DNA of 64,000 nt from Vreelandella nigrificans (GTDB taxonomy: Bacteria; Pseudomonadota; Gammaproteobacteria; Pseudomonadales; Halomonadaceae), in the NCBI RefSeq assembly GCF_002374315.1, contig NZ_NWUX01000020.1, positions 1 through 64,000 on the forward strand, in the 5' to 3' direction. Of the stretch, positions 4,565 through 26,062 are shown one piece after another. The stretch's first letter is position 1. Every line of letters begins with the position of its first letter. The notes beneath the pieces are model-generated. The model saw only the letters and a program-made list of their open reading frames with translations, was not told where the DNA came from and did not search any database. A program made the translations under genes and the position numbers.

Positions 4565-4947
4565 TGTATTAGCAGTGTTGTAGGAGGGCGCTTCAGCGCG
4601 CGATGATCACGCCACATAAGCAATCTAGCCACCCCGTAGCGCGACGTAACGCTTGGCGAGGAACGAGCCAAAAGGCACCCGCGATGGCAGCGTCAGCTGC
4701 CCAAAGCCTGCTCCAGCTCAATTTCTCATCGAAGCCACGTGACCTAAGCCAAATTTATCAATAAAGTATGATTAAATCGTAAAAACGAGCCGGCACGCGA
4801 ATTTTGGATATGTTGCCATGCGGGATAAATAAAACTATAAAAACAGTGGTTTATGATTTTTGGAACGGCTAGATAACACCAATAATGTGCTGGCATGTTC
4901 AAGGGTGTTATGCAGCAGGCTATATAATCACTGTTAGGAGAGAGAAT
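4565..4947 (+). repeat. Composite intergenic module, copy A, with attI-like end
   Basis: Three parts follow one another. The first is a GC-rich palindromic part (GTAGCGCGACGTAACGCTTGG, then AAAGGCACCCGCGATGG) shared with 17395-17545 and 22205-22270. The second is an AT-rich core at 4738-4815 (GACCTAAGCCAAATTTAT, GTATGATTA, ACGAGC, TTTTGGATATG) shared with 11551-11628, 15555-15632 and 22279-22354. The third is GTTATGCAGCAGG (4907-4919) followed by GTTAGGAG (4933-4940), which resembles the end of attI1 of mobile integrons. The next gene is a cassette with its own attC. Confidence 0.6.
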
Positions 4948-5594: not shown

Positions 5595-5598
5595 ATCT

Positions 5599-5668
5599 CC
5601 TAACAAGTTGCTGCACGCGGAAAAATTACTCGCTGCGCTCCCAATTTTCCGGTGAGCAAGGCGTTGAG
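5599..5668 (+). other. attC recombination site (70 bp)
   Basis: The R'' box CCTAACAAG and R' box GGCGTTGAGG enclose TTGCTGCACGCGG and CCGGTGAGCAAGGC arms with the central ACTCGCTGCGCTCCC motif seen in many Pseudomonas/Xanthomonas-type attC sites. It closes the MtlR-like cassette. Confidence 0.85.
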
Positions 5669-5832
5669 GCTGTAGAAAAAGGTCGTAAGCATTTATCGAC
5701 CAGGAATTGTTCATTAATTGAGCTAAAAATAGCCTCTAATCTTAAAATCTGAAGCGCTTTTCACCGAAAACTCTTCTAGATTTTACATATGAGCATCATC
5801 GAAAAATTGGTCGAGGTTTTTTCTACAGCCTC
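5666..5832. mobile_element. ORF-less 167-bp element with 15-bp perfect terminal inverted repeats
   Basis: GAGGCTGTAGAAAAA at 5666-5680 is repeated in exact inverted form at 5818-5832, and each end is bordered by GTT (GTT before GAGG at 5663 and GTTATATG at 5833). No open reading frame of note lies inside. It occupies the place of a cassette between the attC at 5599-5668 and the gene at 5854. It can be read as a gene-less cassette or as a small non-autonomous element targeted to attC ends. Confidence 0.65.
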
Positions 5833-11439: not shown

Positions 11440-11745
11440 ACGGGTGTACTTCGCTTATAACGCACTATAAAATAATTAAATCAATTGTTTGCGCATTCGT
11501 AGCGCGGCGTAACCGCCAAAAATAGCTATAGAGCAATTTTAAGCAGAGCCGTATGGCCAAATTAAACTTTATTAATAAGGTATGATTAGATCAGTAGGAC
11601 GAGCGGGTATGTGAACTTTGGATATGCTGTCAATCCATTTTTTATTAAATATCAGCTGGTTAGTGGTGTTTTGGTGCGAATGTTAAGAATTCTGAACTGA
11701 ATAGTGCAGTACGTTCATTCAATATCAGAGCGCGAACTGTTAGGC
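11440..11745 (+). repeat. Composite intergenic module, copy B, ahead of a cassette gene
   Basis: GTGTACTTCGCTTATAACGCACTA followed by GTAGCGCGGCGTAACC repeats the GC-rich palindromic part. The AT-rich core is at 11551-11628 (TATTAATAAGG, TATGATTAGATCAGTA, ACGAGC, TTTGGATATGCTG). A segment at 11699-11738 (AATAGTGCAGT, GTTCATTCAATATCAGA) is shared with 15701-15741. The module ends AACTGTTAGGC (11735-11745), after which a cassette gene begins. The rest of the gap 11217-11440 shows nothing else. Confidence 0.6.
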
Positions 11746-11803: not shown

Positions 11804-12532
11804 TTGAAACAAAATAAATATGATGACCCGGAGTTTTTTGAAGCCTACTCTAAGATGCCTCGTTCAACTGATGGGTTGAAATCGGCAGGTGAGTGGGAGG
11901 TGTTTCGAACAAATTTACCTGAATTATCAGGGAAGAAGGTTCTTGATCTAGGTTGTGGTTATGGATGGCATTGTCAGTATGCCATTGAGCAAGGTGCTGA
12001 AGTTGTCGTAGGTATTGATTTATCAGAAAAGATGCTTAGTAAGGCGCGTGAGTTAATAATAAAAGGTAATGTTACCTTTGAGCGCTGTGCTATCGAGGAT
12101 TTTGAGGCAACTGAAGAATCATTTGACGTTATATTCAGTTCTCTTGCTTTACATTATGTTGAGGATTTAGGTTCGGTTTTTCATAAAGCGTTCCAGCTAT
12201 TAAAATCAAAAGGTGTTCTCTTTTATTCTGTTGAACACCCGGTATTTACATCAAATAGTTCTCAGGATTGGTGCTACGAAAATAACAATATTCAGCACTG
12301 GCCCCTGGATAACTACTTTCTTGAAGGAAGCAGAACAACGGAATTTTTAGGCAGTCAGGTAATTAAGTATCATCGAACGATTGAAACACATATATCATCT
12401 TTATTAGCAGAAGGATTTGAAATTCAATCGGTATTAGAGCCCAAGCCATCGAAAAAATTGGTGGAAAAAATGGGGTGGTATGATGAACTGAGAAGGCCAA
12501 TGATGCTAATAGTATCAGCAGTAAAAAAATAA
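11804..12532 (+). CDS. Class I SAM-dependent methyltransferase, cassette-borne
   Basis: This protein of 242 residues starts at TTG 11804 after TTGGAGATG. It has the Rossmann methyltransferase motifs: KKVLDLGCGYGWHCQYA (motif I, about residues 44-60), VVGIDLSEKML (post-I), FERCAIEDF, and FDVIFSSLALHYV (motif II), typical of the Methyltransf_11 family for small molecules. The substrate is unknown. The AT-rich gene is followed two bases after its stop by a VCR-like attC and preceded by GTTAGGC, so it is a clean integron cassette. Confidence 0.8.
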   Translation: MKQNKYDDPEFFEAYSKMPRSTDGLKSAGEWEVFRTNLPELSGKKVLDLGCGYGWHCQYAIEQGAEVVVGIDLSEKMLSKARELIIKGNVTFERCAIEDFEATEESFDVIFSSLALHYVEDLGSVFHKAFQLLKSKGVLFYSVEHPVFTSNSSQDWCYENNNIQHWPLDNYFLEGSRTTEFLGSQVIKYHRTIETHISSLLAEGFEIQSVLEPKPSKKLVEKMGWYDELRRPMMLIVSAVKK

Positions 12533-12534
12533 AA

Positions 12535-12626
12535 GCCTAACAAACTGCTCAATAGGGATTCGCAACGCGTGGCATTTTTATAGTGCGTTGATTTTAATAG
12601 TTACGGAGCACTACAGTGGCCGTTAG
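12535..12626 (+). other. attC recombination site, VCR-like (92 bp)
   Basis: It starts GCCTAACAAACTGCTCAATAG, continues through CGCAACGCGTGGCATTTTT and TAGTGCGTTG, and ends TGGCCGTTAGT. The left half is close to the Vibrio VCR consensus; the right half is shorter than a full VCR. It lies between the methyltransferase gene and the end of the divergent soxR gene, whose last codons overlap the R' box. Confidence 0.85.
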
Positions 12627-13078
12627 TTTGGATCGAACAGCCGCGCTCCTGGGCCGACTTCTGCGGCAATGTCGGCAGGGTTGCGTAAAGGACAGCTCTT
12701 CAACGACAGGCAGCCACACCCAATGCAGCCATCCAGCTCGTCGCGGAGCTTGCTTAGCTTGTCGATGCGGTCGCTCAGGTTCGTGCGCCACGCATCCGAT
12801 AGCTGCCGCCAGTCGGATGCGCTGGGTGTACAGCCATCATGTAGCGTCGACAGTGCCTCAGCGATTTCCTCCAGAGGGATGCCGACTCGCTGGGCCACCT
12901 TAATGATAGCCAACCTTCTGAGTACGTCCCGCGCATAGCGCCTATGCCCGCTGACGTTACGGCGGCTCTTGATCATCCCCCGCGATTCGTAGAACCGCAA
13001 TGCGGAAGTCGCCAGGCCAGCGCGCTCAGCGACTTCTCCTATGCTGAGATCCGCGTGAGTTTGAGTGGAGCGAGACAT
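12623..13078 (-). CDS. soxR: Redox-sensitive MerR-family regulator SoxR (first copy)
   Basis: The protein of 151 residues has an N-terminal MerR helix-turn-helix (LSIGEVAERAGLATSALRFYESRGMI) and dimer helix. It carries the [2Fe-2S] cluster motif CIGCGCLSLKSC (C-x2-C-x-C-x5-C) at about residues 119-130 that distinguishes SoxR from other MerR proteins. SoxR is activated by redox-cycling compounds and remodels promoters with long spacers. It is divergent from an arylamine N-acetyltransferase gene, with an 18-bp palindrome between. It lies between two attC sites, so it may have travelled as part of a cassette. GC content is higher than in adjacent cassettes. Confidence 0.9.
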   Translation of the reverse strand: MSRSTQTHADLSIGEVAERAGLATSALRFYESRGMIKSRRNVSGHRRYARDVLRRLAIIKVAQRVGIPLEEIAEALSTLHDGCTPSASDWRQLSDAWRTNLSDRIDKLSKLRDELDGCIGCGCLSLKSCPLRNPADIAAEVGPGARLFDPN

Positions 13079-13094
13079 TTTTTGGCATAGCCTC

Positions 13095-13125
13095 TTGACT
13101 TAAAGTTAACTTTAAGTATTACGCT
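13095..13125 (+). promoter_or_regulatory. SoxR-type promoter with sox box, directed at the N-acetyltransferase gene
   Basis: TTGACT (13095-13100) and TACGCT (13120-13125) are separated by 19 bases, the overlong spacer typical of MerR/SoxR activation. The spacer holds the perfect 18-bp palindrome CTTAAAGTTAACTTTAAG (13099-13116). The same site covers the start region of soxR. Confidence 0.75.
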
Positions 13126-13218
13126 TGTTGCCGTTACATTTCAAGACGCTGAACTAGCCCCTATCAGAAGGTGGAGTAAACCACTCTACAGTTATCCATG
13201 TATGAGGAGTGATTCATT

Positions 13219-14118
13219 ATGAATGCCACAACGCGACCGAACCTTCCAGTTCAGGAGAGGCAGTGGGAATCGGCAGTGCTCGACCTGGAAGCCTACTTAG
13301 CACGTATCGACTATCACGGGTCGATTGCGCCGACCATAGAAACCCTGAGCGCTCTGCAGCGGGCGCATCTGGACGTGATTGCATTCGAGAATCTGAATAT
13401 TATCACCGGCGGCGAGATCCGGCTTGATTTGGCCAGCCTCCAAGACAAGCTGGTTTACCACAGACGCGGTGGGTACTGCCATGAGCAGAATATTCTATTT
13501 GCCACCGTATTGGACCGGCTCGGGTTCGATGTCACCGGCCGCAGTGCACGGATGCTAATGGGGGGCGATGAGCGTGAATTAACGGCTATCGGCCACACGT
13601 GCCTCAATGTCAGGGTCGGCGGAAACGACTGGCATGTGGATGTTGGGGTCGGCAATACCGGGCCTCGGGAGCCAATCCCACTGGAGGATGGGGTCGAGGT
13701 GTCCCATGGCCTCTGGGTATATCGTTTGAACAGAACCGAGGCCGGTCGGTGGCTGCTGCGTTACCGTCGCCACGATGGCTGGTTCAACCTGTACCAATTC
13801 AGTGAGGAACCCTATTACCGGGTGGATTACGAGGACCACAATTATGGTGTGGCGACACACCCCAAATCGCCCTTCGTGCGCCGAATTGTGGCGCAGCGTA
13901 ATGGTGAAGCTATCCGATATGCGCTGACTGACTGTGAGCTGAAAGTGTTTCGTCCAGACGAGCCGCCGGAAAAGCACTCCATTCTCCCTGAGATGATGCC
14001 AGAGTTGCTGCGGGATGTCTTTGGGTTGGATCTGCCACAGGAGGCCTTGAGCCTACTTGTGGATCGGGCTCAGGCCATGTGCGGTGTCGAGGTTAAGGAA
14101 GACTCGCTCGGGGCTTGA
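13219..14118 (+). CDS. nat: Arylamine N-acetyltransferase (NAT)
   Basis: The protein of 299 residues has the NAT fold and a complete Cys-His-Asp triad: Cys87 in RRGGYCHEQN, His126 in IGHTCLNV and Asp141 in WHVDVGVGN, with family-like spacing. NATs move an acetyl group from acetyl-CoA to arylamines and hydrazines. The ATG at 13219 follows GAGGAG. It is read from a SoxR-type promoter, so it may protect against redox-active aromatic amines. The family consensus RGGYCFE has HE here instead of FE. It lies inside an attC-bounded unit. Confidence 0.85.
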   Translation: MNATTRPNLPVQERQWESAVLDLEAYLARIDYHGSIAPTIETLSALQRAHLDVIAFENLNIITGGEIRLDLASLQDKLVYHRRGGYCHEQNILFATVLDRLGFDVTGRSARMLMGGDERELTAIGHTCLNVRVGGNDWHVDVGVGNTGPREPIPLEDGVEVSHGLWVYRLNRTEAGRWLLRYRRHDGWFNLYQFSEEPYYRVDYEDHNYGVATHPKSPFVRRIVAQRNGEAIRYALTDCELKVFRPDEPPEKHSILPEMMPELLRDVFGLDLPQEALSLLVDRAQAMCGVEVKEDSLGA

Positions 14119-14239
14119 TGATGCGTGTGCGGTAGCGTCAAAGGAGGAGCAAGCGGAACAGCCATTGAAAGAGAAAGACGGCTAGTTCATTCTTCAAATA
14201 GCATCTGAGCCGTTAAGCCACCTTGCAACGTTGCCAGAT

Positions 14240-14298
14240 GCCCAACAACGAGCTCAAGCCGACGGCCTTACAGGCCGCAGCTTAGCTCTAGCGTTGAG
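14240..14298 (+). other. attC recombination site (59 bp, classical 59-base element)
   Basis: The site reads R'' GCCCAACAAC, then AGCTCAAGCCGACGGCC, a short TTACA centre, GGCCGCAGCTTAGCTC and R' AGCGTTGAGG. The two arms pair along most of their length, as in mobile-integron attC sites. It stands downstream of the NAT gene and closes the soxR-nat unit. The gap 14119-14432 has nothing else of note. Confidence 0.85.
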
Positions 14299-14432
14299 GC
14301 TTGTAAAAAAGCGCTGAGGCCTAGGTTTTATAGGGTCGGGACAAAAAGACGAGGAGTGGGCTGCAAGCTGTGCTTATCGCAGGATAAGGTCACGGAGGCT
14401 TCGTATCATCATGCGCCACCGTTAGGAATGGG

Positions 14433-15377: not shown

Positions 15378-15554
15378 AGTAATAGGCCTGAGGCTTGGCG
15401 CTCAATAGTAGAGTGGGTTTGGCTGAGTCTGTGATTATAAGCTTAATGGTTGTGTTGAGCATACTCAGCCGTTCGAGGGCCGCCGGTTATACGCTCGCGC
15501 TCTGTGTCAGGCTGCTGCCTAAAGCCCTCGCCAGCGTTTTTTCTGAAAAGTCTC

Positions 15555-15745
15555 GTGACCTAATTCAATTTTATGAATAGAGTATGATTAGATCAGTAAA
15601 ACGAGCGCGTATGTGTATTTTTGATATGCTGCTAAGCGATTGTTAAATTTATTAAATGTCAGATAGCTAGATATATTTATGTGAGCGTGACAAGAATGTT
15701 TAATAGTGCAGTGCGTTCATTCAATATCAGAACGTGCAGTCTAAT
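15555..15745 (+). repeat. Composite intergenic module, copy C, ahead of a cassette gene
   Basis: The AT-rich core (GTGACCTAATTCAATTTTATGAATAG, GTATGATTAGATCAGTA, ACGAGC, TTTTGATATGCTG; 15555-15632) is shared with copies A, B and D. The segment 15701-15741 (AATAGTGCAGTGCGTTCATTCAATATCAGA) is shared with copy B. The GC-rich palindromic part is not evident in 15378-15554. The next gene is a cassette gene with attC. Confidence 0.6.
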
Positions 15746-17963: not shown

Positions 17964-19793
17964 ATGGCTGAGATCGCTTACGCCAAAATCCACCCGGCTA
18001 TCGGTATCGCCAGGGTCGGCAATTCCAAGCAAACCGACGGTTTTTATATTGGTCCCCAGGTCACGGAGCCTCCGCCCAGGGAGCCGGGCGCCTACCGGGA
18101 TGCCACCGGTGCCTTGAAGCGCGAGGTGGCTGAATTCCGCATCTACGCTTACGACAGCAACGGTCGGGTAGTGCGGGAGCTGACCATGGATGCCGCCACC
18201 GAGATTACCTGGACGGTGGAAGTAGCTAACCATAAAGCAGCTTGGTACAACTTCGAGCTCGCGCTGGATATCCCTGAAGCGGAGAGGGCAGTGCCTTCCA
18301 CGCGTCGTAACGCCGATGTGGCGTTGGATCGGCACAATCTGTCCATCATCCCAGGCGCGCGTAGCATCAATACCTGCTCCGGCTTAGCTCAGTTTCAGGG
18401 CGGAACGTTCATGGGAATAGAGGTGCCACTGGGGGAGTTGCGCACCGACGTCTTGGGCCGGCTGCAGGTCTTCGGCGGCTATGGGCTCTCCGCCTCCTAC
18501 CTGGGAAAGACCCCCATCACCTTCGCCAATAATGATGGCTGGTATGATGACACCAGTGACGGCCCTGTGACCGCCACCGTATTGGTGGATGGCCGTCCGA
18601 TTGCCGTGTCTCCAGCCTGGGTGGTGGTGGCTCCGCCCAATTATGGCCCCCAGCAGAAGGCGGTGCGCACCATGTATGCGCTGATGACGGATGTGGCTAT
18701 CCAGGCTGGTCAGTTGCCAGCACCCACCAGGCCTTCCTTTACCGACGACATACTGCCCATCCTCAAAGCCATGTGCGATCTGCAATGGATGAATGCGGGA
18801 TTTGCCGCTGGTTTCGGCTACGGTATGCCCCAGCATTTCCTTGAGCCCCGTTACCTGTCGCAACTGGCCGAACCGGGCGAAACCTACGCCGAACTCAGGC
18901 GCACGGTGGTCAATAGCTTCCGCAACCCTCAGGACGGCGACATCTCCATGAAGCCATGGCCCTGGATCTATGGCGATGCTATGAACGTCCCCATGCCCAG
19001 GGTGCCCGACGCCATGAATGCCCTGACCACTACTCAACTGGCTCTGCTGGACAAATGGGCAGAAGGGGATTTCGAGGCGGACTATGATCCGAATCGGCAA
19101 CCCCTGGAAAGCATCGACGAGGTGCCGCTGGAGCAGCAGCCCGCCATGCTGGATAGGGCAGCGCTAGAGTTCTGCATTGCCGATGCCTTCCATCCGGGGT
19201 GTGAGATGACTTGGCCGGTACGCCACAGCACCATGTATATGGAACCCTACCGCTGGCGCCACCGCAGCCCCGAAGATCCTGAGCCGGACTACGGCACGAC
19301 CCTGACTTCGGCCATGGTGAAGTCTTATAACGGTCCTCTGTACGGCCAATTTCCCGGTTCTATCACCCGTTGGATGGCCATTCCCTGGCAAACCGACACC
19401 GCCAGTTGCCGCTCCGGCTACGACACCGAATACGATCCCTATCTGCCCACCTTCTGGCCCGCTCGGGTACCCAATCAGGTGCTGAGCAAGGAGAACTATG
19501 ACACGGTGATGAACGACTTGTTGCCGAGGGAAGAGCGCCTGGCGGCCTATCATCAACGCGCCGACTGGGACCGCACCCTGGGCCCTGACCACAAGCAACA
19601 GCTGGCGAGAATGGTGACTGATTTCGATCAGATGGGGGTCGTGGAGGTGCGGCCAGGGCTCAGTGGGGATCCCGATTTCCCGCCGCAGATGCAGGTCGAG
19701 GACAGAGGCGGCCGTGACATGACGCCCGAGGAACGGCACGACACCGACAAGGGAATGCGCAAGCTGTTAATCTCCCAACGACGCGGCCGCTAA
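17964..19793 (+). CDS. LodA/GoxA-family quinoprotein amino-acid oxidase (CTQ-type)
   Basis: The protein of 609 residues starts AEIAYAKIHPAIGIARVGNS, the hallmark of LodA (lysine-6-oxidase) and GoxA (glycine oxidase). The cysteine tryptophylquinone residues can be placed at Cys413 (FHPGCEMTW) and Trp470 or Trp475 in RWMAIPWQTDTASC. Such enzymes oxidise amino acids and release hydrogen peroxide and ammonia, and some act as secreted antimicrobials. The start follows AAAGGGAGTG. The stop overlaps the start of the partner flavoprotein (TAATG). The gene is much more GC-rich than its surroundings, hinting at transfer. The substrate cannot be told from sequence. Confidence 0.85.
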   Translation: MAEIAYAKIHPAIGIARVGNSKQTDGFYIGPQVTEPPPREPGAYRDATGALKREVAEFRIYAYDSNGRVVRELTMDAATEITWTVEVANHKAAWYNFELALDIPEAERAVPSTRRNADVALDRHNLSIIPGARSINTCSGLAQFQGGTFMGIEVPLGELRTDVLGRLQVFGGYGLSASYLGKTPITFANNDGWYDDTSDGPVTATVLVDGRPIAVSPAWVVVAPPNYGPQQKAVRTMYALMTDVAIQAGQLPAPTRPSFTDDILPILKAMCDLQWMNAGFAAGFGYGMPQHFLEPRYLSQLAEPGETYAELRRTVVNSFRNPQDGDISMKPWPWIYGDAMNVPMPRVPDAMNALTTTQLALLDKWAEGDFEADYDPNRQPLESIDEVPLEQQPAMLDRAALEFCIADAFHPGCEMTWPVRHSTMYMEPYRWRHRSPEDPEPDYGTTLTSAMVKSYNGPLYGQFPGSITRWMAIPWQTDTASCRSGYDTEYDPYLPTFWPARVPNQVLSKENYDTVMNDLLPREERLAAYHQRADWDRTLGPDHKQQLARMVTDFDQMGVVEVRPGLSGDPDFPPQMQVEDRGGRDMTPEERHDTDKGMRKLLISQRRGR

Positions 19794-20875
19794 TGGCCGA
19801 CTATCGTCCCTACGATGTAGTGATTGTTGGTGCCGGGCCCGCAGGGCTGGCGCTCGGCTCCCTGCTGCGGCCGGAGTATCGGGTGCTGGTTCTGGAACGC
19901 CGGGCTTTACCGATCAGGTCGAGCCCCATTGGGGAGTCCCTGCCGGGAGCGGCCGCTGTGCTGCTGCAGCGCCTTAACCTGATGGCGGCTTTTCGAGATG
20001 CGGGACACCGGGAGCGGGGCGCTGCAGTATCAGTGTGGGATAATGACAAGCCGTTCTGGAGGGATGCCATCCAGGATCCGGCTGGCCCTGGGTGGTATCT
20101 GGATCGGCGGGAATTCGAGCAGATGCTGCGTCGGCGAGCCCAGGATGCCGGGGTGACGCTGGGGGAAGGCTGCAAGCAAGTGGATATCCGCCATCGTCAG
20201 GGCCAGTGGCTCCTGGATACGACACTGGGATCGTTCAGGGCGCCGGTGTTGGTTGACGCCACGGGCCGCAGTGGGCACTTGGGGCGCCGATTGGGATTAC
20301 GGCGCTACGCCGATGATCCTCTGCTGTGTCTCTACAGTTTTCTGGATCAAGTGGCTGAGAGCCAGGACGCTACTATGCGTATCCAGGCGGATGCCCGTGG
20401 CTGGTGGTATACGGTGCCTCTGCCTCATGGGCAGCGGGTGTTGGCCTACCACATGGACATCGATGATCCGCTGAGCCGTCAGCTGCTGCGCCGCCCCGAC
20501 GCCCTTCTGGCCCGAGCCAGGGAGCATGCTCTGTTGGCAGAGGTGTTGGAGGGGCTGGCTCCTGCCCGTGTACGAGGGCGACCGGCTGGCACTTCTCTGT
20601 TGGAAGTAGACCAGTTGCCGAAGGTGGGATCGGGATTTCTGGCCATCGGTGATGCCCTGCTGGCTTTCGATCCACTCGCTTCCCAAGGGCTCTTTCATTC
20701 CCTGGCCTCGGCAGCCAGTGCGGCCAAGGCTATCGAGTCTGGTTTGCACCAATCACTGGGTGCCTACCAGCAGGAGATGCAGGCGGTTAGCCAGCGCTAT
20801 CTCTGGCATCTCAAGGCCAGCTATCAGGGGCCAAGGCGTTTCAGTCAGGAGGCCTTCTGGCAACGGCGGCAGTGA
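19793..20875 (+). CDS. LodB-type FAD-dependent maturation protein
   Basis: The flavoprotein of 360 residues has an N-terminal GxGxxG (VVIVGAGPAGLALGSLL), PIGESLPGAA as in tryptophan-halogenase-like proteins, LVDATGRSG and GFLAIGDALLAFDPLASQG as FAD-contacting motifs. LodB proteins are required to build the CTQ cofactor in LodA in the cytoplasm. Translation is coupled to the lodA-like gene by a TAATG overlap, so the two form an operon. The high GC content equals that of its partner. Confidence 0.85.
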   Translation: MADYRPYDVVIVGAGPAGLALGSLLRPEYRVLVLERRALPIRSSPIGESLPGAAAVLLQRLNLMAAFRDAGHRERGAAVSVWDNDKPFWRDAIQDPAGPGWYLDRREFEQMLRRRAQDAGVTLGEGCKQVDIRHRQGQWLLDTTLGSFRAPVLVDATGRSGHLGRRLGLRRYADDPLLCLYSFLDQVAESQDATMRIQADARGWWYTVPLPHGQRVLAYHMDIDDPLSRQLLRRPDALLARAREHALLAEVLEGLAPARVRGRPAGTSLLEVDQLPKVGSGFLAIGDALLAFDPLASQGLFHSLASAASAAKAIESGLHQSLGAYQQEMQAVSQRYLWHLKASYQGPRRFSQEAFWQRRQ

Positions 20876-24447: not shown

Positions 24448-24927
24448 TTAGCTAGTGTTTGCTTCTTGCTGGGCTCTCGCTTTTTGCTCTGCCTGATCCA
24501 GAAGGACTGGGCCGCTACCTGATTCAGCCAGTTTGTCATCTGGGTTATAGAGTGGGCAATTAGTCATGCTTAGACAACCACAGCCTATGCACCCAGCTAG
24601 GTTATCGCGTAGCTTTTGAAGATAAGCAATACGGCCATCAAGCATCTGTTGCCAGTTTTTTGAAAGCTGCTGCCAGTCTTCAACTGTCGGCGTGCGGTTA
24701 TTGGGTAATGATTCAAAGGCCTGTTTAATCTCTTCCAAGCTAACGCCGACTTTCTGTGCTGCTTTAATCACCGAAATTCGCCTTAACACCTCTGGCTTAT
24801 AGCGGCGCTGATTACCCGCATTACGCCAGCTGTGAATTAGTCCTTGTTGCTCGTAGAAGTGCAAGGTACTGACCTTCACACCGCAGCGCTTCGCTACCAT
24901 TCCGACACTCCAAATAGCATCTGCCAT
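24448..24927 (-). CDS. soxR: Redox-sensitive MerR-family regulator SoxR (second copy)
   Basis: The protein has 159 residues from ATG 24927. It has the MerR HTH (WSVGMVAKRCGVKVSTLHFYEQQGLI) and the cluster motif CIGCGCLSMTNC at about residues 118-129. It is about as long as E. coli SoxR. It is divergent from a VOC protein/flavodoxin-like pair, and the sox box in between is closer to the classical one than that of the first soxR. The two copies in this window are clearly diverged paralogues (for example IHSWRNAGNQRRYKPE against IKSRRNVSGHRRYARD). Confidence 0.9.
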   Translation of the reverse strand: MADAIWSVGMVAKRCGVKVSTLHFYEQQGLIHSWRNAGNQRRYKPEVLRRISVIKAAQKVGVSLEEIKQAFESLPNNRTPTVEDWQQLSKNWQQMLDGRIAYLQKLRDNLAGCIGCGCLSMTNCPLYNPDDKLAESGSGPVLLDQAEQKARAQQEANTS

Positions 24928-24971
24928 CACTCACCCCTGAATATTTTTTGCCATTTTTTCCTAAAAACCAC

Positions 24972-25002
24972 TTTACCTCAACTTCAGTTGAGGTTTTATC
25001 CT
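24972..25002 (+). promoter_or_regulatory. SoxR-type promoter with sox box ahead of VOC/flavodoxin operon
   Basis: TTTACC (24972-24977) and TATCCT (24997-25002) are 19 bases apart. The spacer carries CCTCAACTTCAGTTGAGG (24976-24993), matching the E. coli sox box CCTCAAGTTAACTTGAGG with 8-bp arms. This is the best-supported regulatory site in the window. Confidence 0.85.
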
Positions 25003-25031
25003 GCCATCTTACTTAACGCAAGGAGACTCTT

Positions 25032-25484
25032 ATGTACTTAGAACACGTCAATCTGGTGGTTGCTGATATGGATGCCATGTTGGATTTTTACCGTGCAGCC
25101 TTCCCGCACTGGCGGGTGCGGGATGAAGGCCATAGCGAGTGGTATGGCAAACCGCGTAAATGGGTGCACTTTGGTGACGATGAAAATTACTTGGCGTTAA
25201 GCGATCACGGCGAAGGGGAGAACCGTGATTTGAAAGGTCACAGCGTTGGGCTGGCCCATTTTGCTTATGTGGTCGATAACCTCGATGCCGTTGTTGCCAG
25301 GCTAAATAATGCTGGTTATGCCATTGCCAAACCCGGCGCAACAGAGCCGTTTCGAAAAAATGTCTACTTTGTCGATCCGGCCGGTTTTGAAGTGGAGTTT
25401 GTTGAGTATTTGAGTGATATCCCCGCCGAGCGGAATTTAAACCGTGATGCTCTGCAGCCAGCAGCTCAGGGAGATGCTCAGTAA
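25032..25484 (+). CDS. VOC (glyoxalase/bleomycin resistance)-superfamily protein
   Basis: The protein of 150 residues has two beta-alpha-beta-beta-beta modules: LEHVNLVVADMDAMLDFYRAAF (with the first metal-binding His) and VGLAHFAYVVDNLDAVVARL. The C-terminal YFVDPAGFEVEFVEY holds the Glu ligand of a metal site. Members are dioxygenases, lyases or drug-binding proteins. It is read from a SoxR-type promoter and followed 17 bases later by a flavodoxin-like gene, which suggests detoxification of redox-active compounds or their products. Confidence 0.85.
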   Translation: MYLEHVNLVVADMDAMLDFYRAAFPHWRVRDEGHSEWYGKPRKWVHFGDDENYLALSDHGEGENRDLKGHSVGLAHFAYVVDNLDAVVARLNNAGYAIAKPGATEPFRKNVYFVDPAGFEVEFVEYLSDIPAERNLNRDALQPAAQGDAQ

Positions 25485-25501
25485 CGCAAGGGGGAGGGGT
25501 A

Positions 25502-26062
25502 ATGAAAGTCGCCGTCGTTTTTCATTCCGCTTCAGGCAGTACCAAGCAACTCGCGCAGGCTGTTGCTTCTGGTGCAGCGGTGGTATCTGATGTTGAAGTG
25601 GCCATGGTAGAAATTGTTGGTGCCGATATTATCGAAGGGCGTTTTCGCAATACCAAGCTGCTGCAGCAATTAGACAAGGCCGATGCATTGGTCTTTGGTT
25701 CACCTACCTATATGGGCTGCGTGTCAGCCCAGTTTAAAGCCTTTAGTGATGCCACTGGTGAGCTATGGTCAACGCAATCGTGGGCAAACAAGGTTGCCGC
25801 TGGCTTTACCATTGGTGCCAACTTAAGTGGCGATCAGCTGAATACACTTCAGTACATGCAAGTATTCGCAAGTCAGCATGGCATGCTATGGGTAGGCTTG
25901 GATATCCCGGGCAACTACGATCCAGAAATGCGTAACAGGCTGGGGGCGCAGTCTGGGCTTATTGCTCATTCAGTAGATGGTGTATTAGATGAAACAGACT
26001 TACTTGCCGCGCGTTATTTAGGCCAGCGGGTGGCGCAAGTCAGCAAGAAGCTTGCGGCGTGA
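25502..26062 (+). CDS. Flavodoxin-like NAD(P)H:quinone oxidoreductase (WrbA type)
   Basis: The protein of 186 residues has the FMN phosphate-binding loop HSASGSTKQLAQ (about residues 8-19), GSPTYMGCVSAQFKAFSD as the 60s isoalloxazine loop and a conserved GFTIGANLSGDQ. It resembles WrbA/flavodoxin-family quinone reductases, slightly shorter and without the usual insertion. Two-electron quinone reduction would prevent redox cycling. It is the second gene of the SoxR-controlled pair. Confidence 0.8.
   Translation: MKVAVVFHSASGSTKQLAQAVASGAAVVSDVEVAMVEIVGADIIEGRFRNTKLLQQLDKADALVFGSPTYMGCVSAQFKAFSDATGELWSTQSWANKVAAGFTIGANLSGDQLNTLQYMQVFASQHGMLWVGLDIPGNYDPEMRNRLGAQSGLIAHSVDGVLDETDLLAARYLGQRVAQVSKKLAA

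Follow-up and report, generated by a model that had tools for sequence, protein, structure and literature searches.

We analyzed a 64-kb stretch of Vreelandella nigrificans DNA (hereafter the window) and propose that a SoxR-controlled detoxification operon was probably captured as an integron gene cassette, lost its reductase gene and is now the second cassette in an integron that lies beside rlmF and lacks an integrase. An operon with the order soxR, SoxR box, FMN reductase gene and nat would have been captured within the genus, the reductase gene would then have been lost stepwise, and the shortened soxR–nat unit would have persisted in its present position. The array reads attI-like site, methyltransferase gene, damaged attC, soxR/nat, attC2, insertion sequence (IS) remnant and rlmF (Table 1), and is by its layout a fossil integron without an integrase. 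If so, the integron took up a whole sensor–promoter–effector module and not a bare gene.

Table 1. Coordinates of the soxR–nat cassette and adjoining features in the window.
Feature	Position	Strand	Basis or remark
Orphan attI-like site	11537-11739	+	Crossover G^TTAGGC at 11739/11740; no intI beside it; tied in through sister copies
Class I SAM methyltransferase gene, first cassette of the putative fossil array	11804-12532	+	Pfam; ends 2 bp before the VCR-like attC
VCR-like left attC	12535-12628	+	R'' GCCTAAC 12535-12541; core GTTAGTT 12622-12628; ~32 bp missing at 12620/12621
soxR	12623-13078	-	151 aa; cysteine motif CIGCGCLSLKSC; TIGR01950 208 bits; dN/dS 0.12
SoxR-type promoter, TTGACT-19 bp-TACGCT	13095-13125	+	Consensus match; conserved in G020 and L017
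FMN reductase gene remnant, last codons	13147-13179	+	Alignment with L017 and G020
Arylamine N-acetyltransferase gene (nat)	13219-14118	+	299 aa; PF00797, PDB relatives, motif positions
attC2, right attC of the soxR–nat cassette	14240-14299	+	Pairing score 8.5; fold of 14245-14300; cassette exchange at core
IS1182-family left-end remnant joined to the attC2 core	14296-14366	+	Followed by rlmF

The initial annotation had described a divergent pair of soxR and an arylamine N-acetyltransferase (NAT) gene, and profile searches bore out both identities. The soxR product passed the cut-off of the NCBIfam SoxR equivalog TIGR01950 (208.4 bits; cut-off, 116.9), and the motif CIGCGCLSLKSC in its translation fits CX2CXCX5C, the four-cysteine [2Fe-2S] motif of SoxR. 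The nat product matched PF00797 with 192.3 bits (gathering score, 22.8; E 1.5e-56) and has solved relatives in the PDB (3d9w, 4guz and 2bsz). The Cys–His–Asp triad, the mark of arylamine N-acetyltransferases, is present as Cys87, His126 and Asp141, with the motifs YCHEQN at 86, GHTCLNV at 125 and HVDVGVG at 139. The protein does not belong to the NhoA equivalog NF011621, against which it scored 127.5 bits with a curated cut-off of 493.

The promoter between the two genes consists of TTGACT (13095-13100), a 19-bp spacer and TACGCT (13120-13125), and contains the perfect palindrome ACTTAAAGTTAACTTTAAGT at 13098-13117. An own SoxR-type promoter with a perfect 18-bp palindrome had been claimed; the promoter stands, and the palindrome measures 20 bp. 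Using a SoxR-promoter consensus derived from the soxS box of E. coli together with the matches seen among relatives, we found agreement at 24 of 27 positions; in ten shuffled versions of the 64-kb window (mononucleotide shuffles, both strands), the score peaked at 19. Near-identical promoters are present in the congener G020 and in L017, a contig of an Ectothiorhodospiraceae metagenome-assembled genome. Oxidation of the Fe-S cluster of SoxR untwists an over-long promoter spacer and thereby starts transcription, and NAT moves acetyl groups onto aromatic amines and hydrazines. Redox-cycling compounds would thus oxidize SoxR, the promoter at 13095-13125 would be realigned and nat would be switched on, after which the enzyme would N-acetylate its aromatic amine or hydrazine substrates. 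Where the operon was complete, reduction of quinones and of nitro or azo compounds by the flavin reductase would precede this step and could supply amines to NAT. We infer SoxR binding to this promoter, nat induction and the enzyme substrate from the sequence. In E. coli soxRS, soxR is likewise divergent from its target; the soxR–nat unit resembles such SoxR regulon units in its SoxR, its 19-bp-spacer promoter with a palindrome and its divergent layout, but differs in that its target is an arylamine N-acetyltransferase and its operator is a variant, CTTAAAGTTAACTTTAAG.

The unit had been described as a two-gene cassette, which holds for its present state and not for its original one, which comprised soxR, an FMN reductase gene and nat. 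In L017, soxR and the box are followed by a gene for an NADPH-dependent FMN reductase (PF03358, E 4e-39) and, 39 bp later, by nat. In G020, the start and the last codons of the reductase gene are kept around an internal deletion, and the window retains the last codons alone. These pieces, together with the intact gene in L017, indicate that the two-gene cassette is a shortened three-gene unit; the remnant at 13147-13179 rules out a cassette that had two genes from the beginning. The L017 unit is similar to that of the window in soxR (77% identical), nat (82% identical) and promoter; it differs in keeping the reductase gene, in having other neighbors and in showing no attC after nat when inspected by eye. 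The same inspection revealed no attC at the soxR–nat pair of L086. The occurrence of soxR–nat pairs without attC in relatives had been named as an observation that would contradict the initial annotation; L017 and L086 tell against a module made by integrons, not against a cassette at this site.

The loss of the reductase gene raises the question of whether nat and soxR are still useful without it or form a dying fossil. The stepwise loss itself, the lack of an IntI over the cut-off in the draft genome of the strain and the presence of nat in only 2 of the 37 genus genomes searched, its own included, are consistent with a dying fossil. However, both genes are intact, their promoter is conserved, and the dN/dS values between the window and G020 were 0.115 for soxR and 0.252 for nat, compared with 0.085 for rlmF, values which indicate purifying selection on both genes. 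We therefore consider decay of a useless unit improbable.

We then compared nat loci in other genomes, 16 of which came from a scan of named genomes and more from 369 sampled genomes of the class (10 matched, own included). Twelve loci, L018-L029, from Halomonas, Billgrantia, Litchfieldella, Franzmannia and Alkalilimnicola, carry a nat of 60-68% identity (lowest, 59.7%). In all twelve, a SoxR-type promoter scoring 22-25 of 27 lies 70-191 bp upstream of nat; shuffling each upstream region 200 times never gave such a score. None of the twelve has soxR within 8 kb of nat. In L083 (nat 70% identity), a box of 24 of 27 precedes nat, and no soxR was found beside it within the ~1.5 kb searched. In L017, the box precedes the FMN reductase–nat pair. 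Taken together, a SoxR box stands before nat or its operon in 14 of the 15 loci outside the genus at ~60% identity or more, and 13 of these 14 have no adjacent soxR. L086 is a separate case, with a nat 33-36% identical, its own divergent soxR and a box. The box is missing in Luteimonas L030 (61%), Nocardiopsis L031 (53%), Acinetobacter L032 and before most of the distant NAT genes; that of the distant NAT L088, with 17 of 27 reached by 0 of 200 shuffles, was left uncounted. SoxR itself scored above the cut-off in all 19 genomes searched. Among 197 plasmid records with a NAT relative, all were below 60% identity, and no NAT relative was found in viral contigs.

The boxes in 14 of 15 loci suggest that SoxR control of nat is conserved, and the cassette looks like a captured, decayed copy that carries its own sensor. 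The proposed connection of redox-cycler sensing with arylamine acetylation thus gained support from many other genomes. A conserved link of this kind would mean that Halomonas-type bacteria couple arylamine acetylation to the sensing of redox stress, and points to a role that bacterial NATs could play in nature. In addition, FMN reductase homologues in the Halomonas loci L025 (4590) and L029 (13491), 52-53% identical, have a SoxR-type box of their own 65 bp upstream (score 22); in these genomes, one SoxR regulon may therefore include reductase and nat as separate units.

A second, native SoxR is encoded at 24448-24930, 11 kb from the cassette, and a canonical box, TTTACC-TCAACTTCAGTTGAGGTTT-TATCCT, lies at 24972 before a VOC-family and a flavodoxin-like gene. 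This region (24448-26062) has soxR divergent from the two other genes, whose labels come from reading the translations. The native box, together with the nat genes elsewhere that have a box without an adjacent soxR, would be compatible with nat being controlled mainly by the native SoxR or by an upstream cassette promoter, the cassette SoxR being redundant. The regulator–operator pairs are different, however. The cassette SoxR contains LRFYE and SGHRRY and faces the operator ACTTAAAG..CTTTAAGT, whereas the canonical pair, the type of the native SoxR, has LHFYE and GNQRRY with ACCTCAAG..CTTGAGGT. The cassette box thus departs symmetrically from the canonical half-site, in which the second base is C and not T. 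We surveyed 42 distinct SoxR loci, 35 of which had a box scoring at least 20 within 300 bp; the other seven were left out, and five of them have a box further away (L151, L152, L155, L156 and L189, the last as L146). The T variant occurred at 5 of the 7 loci in which the SoxR recognition stretch reads R and then E, at 0 of 21 with H and at 0 of 7 others (Fisher p 0.0002, a value that ignores relatedness, 3 of the 5 variant loci being close relatives). L194 and L198, both among the five, encode SoxR proteins 52-56% identical to that of the cassette. The tracking of the variant with cassette-type SoxR suggests that the operator of the cassette is recognized by the cassette SoxR itself and makes redundancy of this regulator unlikely. 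We tentatively suggest, as one possibility, an insulated redox switch, in which the cassette SoxR and its operator co-evolved away from the canonical pair so that the module keeps its own inducible control in a new host.

The right boundary of the unit is attC2, which comprises R'' GCCCAAC, L'' GAGCT(C)AAGC with one extrahelical base, L' GCTTAGCTC and the core GTTGAGG at 14293. We called attC sites with a home-made pairing score, which is noisy, as 38 of 600 control GTT positions reach 7.5; attC2 scored 8.5, a value found at 7 of the 600 controls. The attC2 of G020 carries a paired arm change, GGGCT/AGCCC, which preserves pairing, and its R'' reads GCCCAGC. The stretch from attC2 to rlmF was matched in 51 of 81 genus genomes, some of which match just the IS end of the query, and the best 30 of the 51 were analyzed (30 genomes, own included). 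Nine of these 30 rlmF-side loci, own included, retain the IS1182 left end. The 400-bp flanks left of the core in the nine genomes fell into seven unrelated groups, {G000, G020}, {G098, G095}, G083, G096, G005, G084 and G003, with local alignment scores of 16-27 between groups and 675-676 within, and all of them stop at the attC core. An attC score of at least 7.5 was obtained in 7 of the 9 genomes; G098 (6.5) and G095 (5.5) were weak, with the core GCT for GTT. Excluding G000 and G020, five of the seven junction genomes score as attC. The distance from the IS left end to the rlmF anchor was 271-286 bp in G098, G083, G096, G084 and G003 and shorter in G000/G020 (141/142 bp), G095 (174 bp) and G005 (97 bp). 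Similar IS remnants beside rlmF point to one ancestral insertion. Seven unrelated left flanks ending at one attC core indicate that cassettes were exchanged there, and of all observations this exchange, at the crossover point of the integrase, speaks most strongly for entry of soxR–nat as a cassette. More generally, the 3' flank of rlmF (L055-L069; G005, G083, G084, G096, G098, G095 and G003) acts as a hot spot where sequences that differ between species, mostly attC-tailed, lie by the same IS remnant.

The unit had been placed between two attC sites; the right one is of textbook form, and the left one is VCR-like and damaged, with a pairing score of 5.5, so the claim held in part. In alignments with Photobacterium and Vibrio sites, ~32 bp are gone before CGTTAG, the L' arm included. 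Most congener matches to the left attC end at 12596-12606, while G029 and two plasmid sites extend the match to GTGGC, ending at 12620. The bottom strand has no attC-like fold, which together with the score and the missing bases rules out an intact site. A fusion with a foreign soxR flank was rejected as well: the right end of the site corresponds in alignments to the middle part of VCR-like sites, so that internal loss fits better. The core G^TT (12622/12623) falls on the soxR stop codon (12623-12625), exactly at the start of the similarity to L017, confirming that an attC ends in the last codons of soxR. The left edge is, to judge from these alignments, a cassette edge with a crippled attC. 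The segment 12608-12640 is common to the window and G020, in which other DNA precedes it; the bases were therefore probably lost from the attC before the two copies diverged, with further loss in G020 since. Two more attC sites, one VCR-like and one short, tail other genes of the window at 329-447 and 5598-5668.

The attI-like site at the head of the array belongs to a ~200-bp repeat family with copies at 4740-4935, 11537-11739 and 15539-15740. We considered these repeats as IS remnants and rejected this, as they are attI-like. At 10 of 18 congeneric intI loci, the DNA adjoining intI is matched by the copy at 4740 or by that at 15539; among these matches, that in L033 is ~1 kb from intI and that in L034 is on its far side. 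The 11537 copy, which precedes the soxR–nat array, has no direct BLAST match to intI-adjacent DNA; like the 4740 copy, it ends in ACTG^TTAGG. The attI alignment is loose, with L044 and L046-L048 aligning poorly. L046 is the intI of G020, a genome that has similar repeat copies and a different region upstream of its own intI. Orphan attI-like sites also occur at L014:7181-7396 and 13714-13920, and two orphan sites without intI precede a gene with an attC, one of these attC sites being damaged. Between repeats of the same region in the window, a GC-rich (~61%) lodA-type gene (17964-20875; LodA_N/LodA_C domains) lies with a flavoprotein gene alongside. An Rfam search of the 64-kb window gave no result. 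An IntI scored above the cut-off in 18 of 81 genus genomes, G020 among them, in 0 of 14 control genomes, and not in the strain's own draft assembly of 84 contigs. The damaged left attC and this lack of an IntI make mobility of the cassette today doubtful, and its original capture would have been by IntI.

These observations also bear on whether soxR–nat was ever a cassette, since an ordinary chromosomal operon could have been brought between decayed attC sites by IS-mediated rearrangement. The damage to the left attC, the soxR/nat and soxR/FMN reductase–nat loci elsewhere in which no attC was seen by eye and the plentiful IS remnants around the unit are in keeping with such an origin. It is nevertheless very improbable, given that the unit ends on the right in a canonical attC whose arm change in G020 is compensated, that unrelated sequences end at the same junction in seven other genomes, five scoring as attC, that the left edge coincides with the core of a VCR-type attC, and that an attI-like site precedes the array. 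Capture as a cassette is thus the reading that we follow.

The promoter had been taken to set the unit apart from the usual promoterless cassettes, a contrast that does not hold, as cassette-borne promoters are not exceptional in the accessible text of PMC8876359. Internal promoters are described there for cmlA1 and toxin–antitoxin cassettes, and most cassettes of the large Vibrio rotiferianus array are transcribed from their own promoters (PMC8876359). The soxR–nat unit is like these cassettes in being attC-tailed with its own promoter, but is unlike those covered in that text in that the promoter is SoxR-type and inducible and the divergent sensor gene lies in the same cassette. In the available portions of the open-access literature, we found no report that a cassette carries a SoxR switch, that SoxR controls NAT or that NAT is cassette-borne.

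Finally, the 85-bp sequence right of attC2 was considered as a cassette leader; this was ruled out, as an IS1182 element has its left end there. In one copy of the element, a frame of 259 residues matched the IS1182-type transposase model NF033551 with 103 bits, below its cut-off of 270, and IS5 weakly; another copy matched PF05598. The element often lies in attC cores, with ...GCGTT/GAGSCTGTAGAAAAA on the left and TTTTTCTACAGCCTC/GTTA... on the right, that is, with GTT on both sides (L092-L111 and L112-L139). The loci were collected partly with a query overlapping attC2 and otherwise with an internal IS query. At 29 of 48 distinct IS left ends, the left flank scored 7.5 or more and was thus attC-like, compared with 38 of 600 control GTT positions; a score of 8.5 was reached at 16 of 48 and at 7 of 600. 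Past the end motif, GTT comes first in 30 of 77 distinct flanks and AAC, which marks left ends read on the opposite strand, in 41; the remaining 6 start with neither. A search of plasmids for the element found none. We take IS1272 to be an IS1182-family element. IS1272 replaces stem-loops without target duplication, according to the accessible text of PMC5678879. IS1111-family elements target attC (Post & Hall 2009 and Tetu & Holmes 2008, as cited in the available part of PMC11187229). The element by attC2 resembles these in inserting at one end of attC sites; unlike them, as they are described there, it encodes an IS1182-type and not an IS110-family transposase and has GTT on both sides. An IS1182-type element with attC preference was not found reported in the accessible portions of the open-access literature. 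Besides the remnant at 14296-14366, the window holds a MITE-like pair of ends of this element at 5666-5832.
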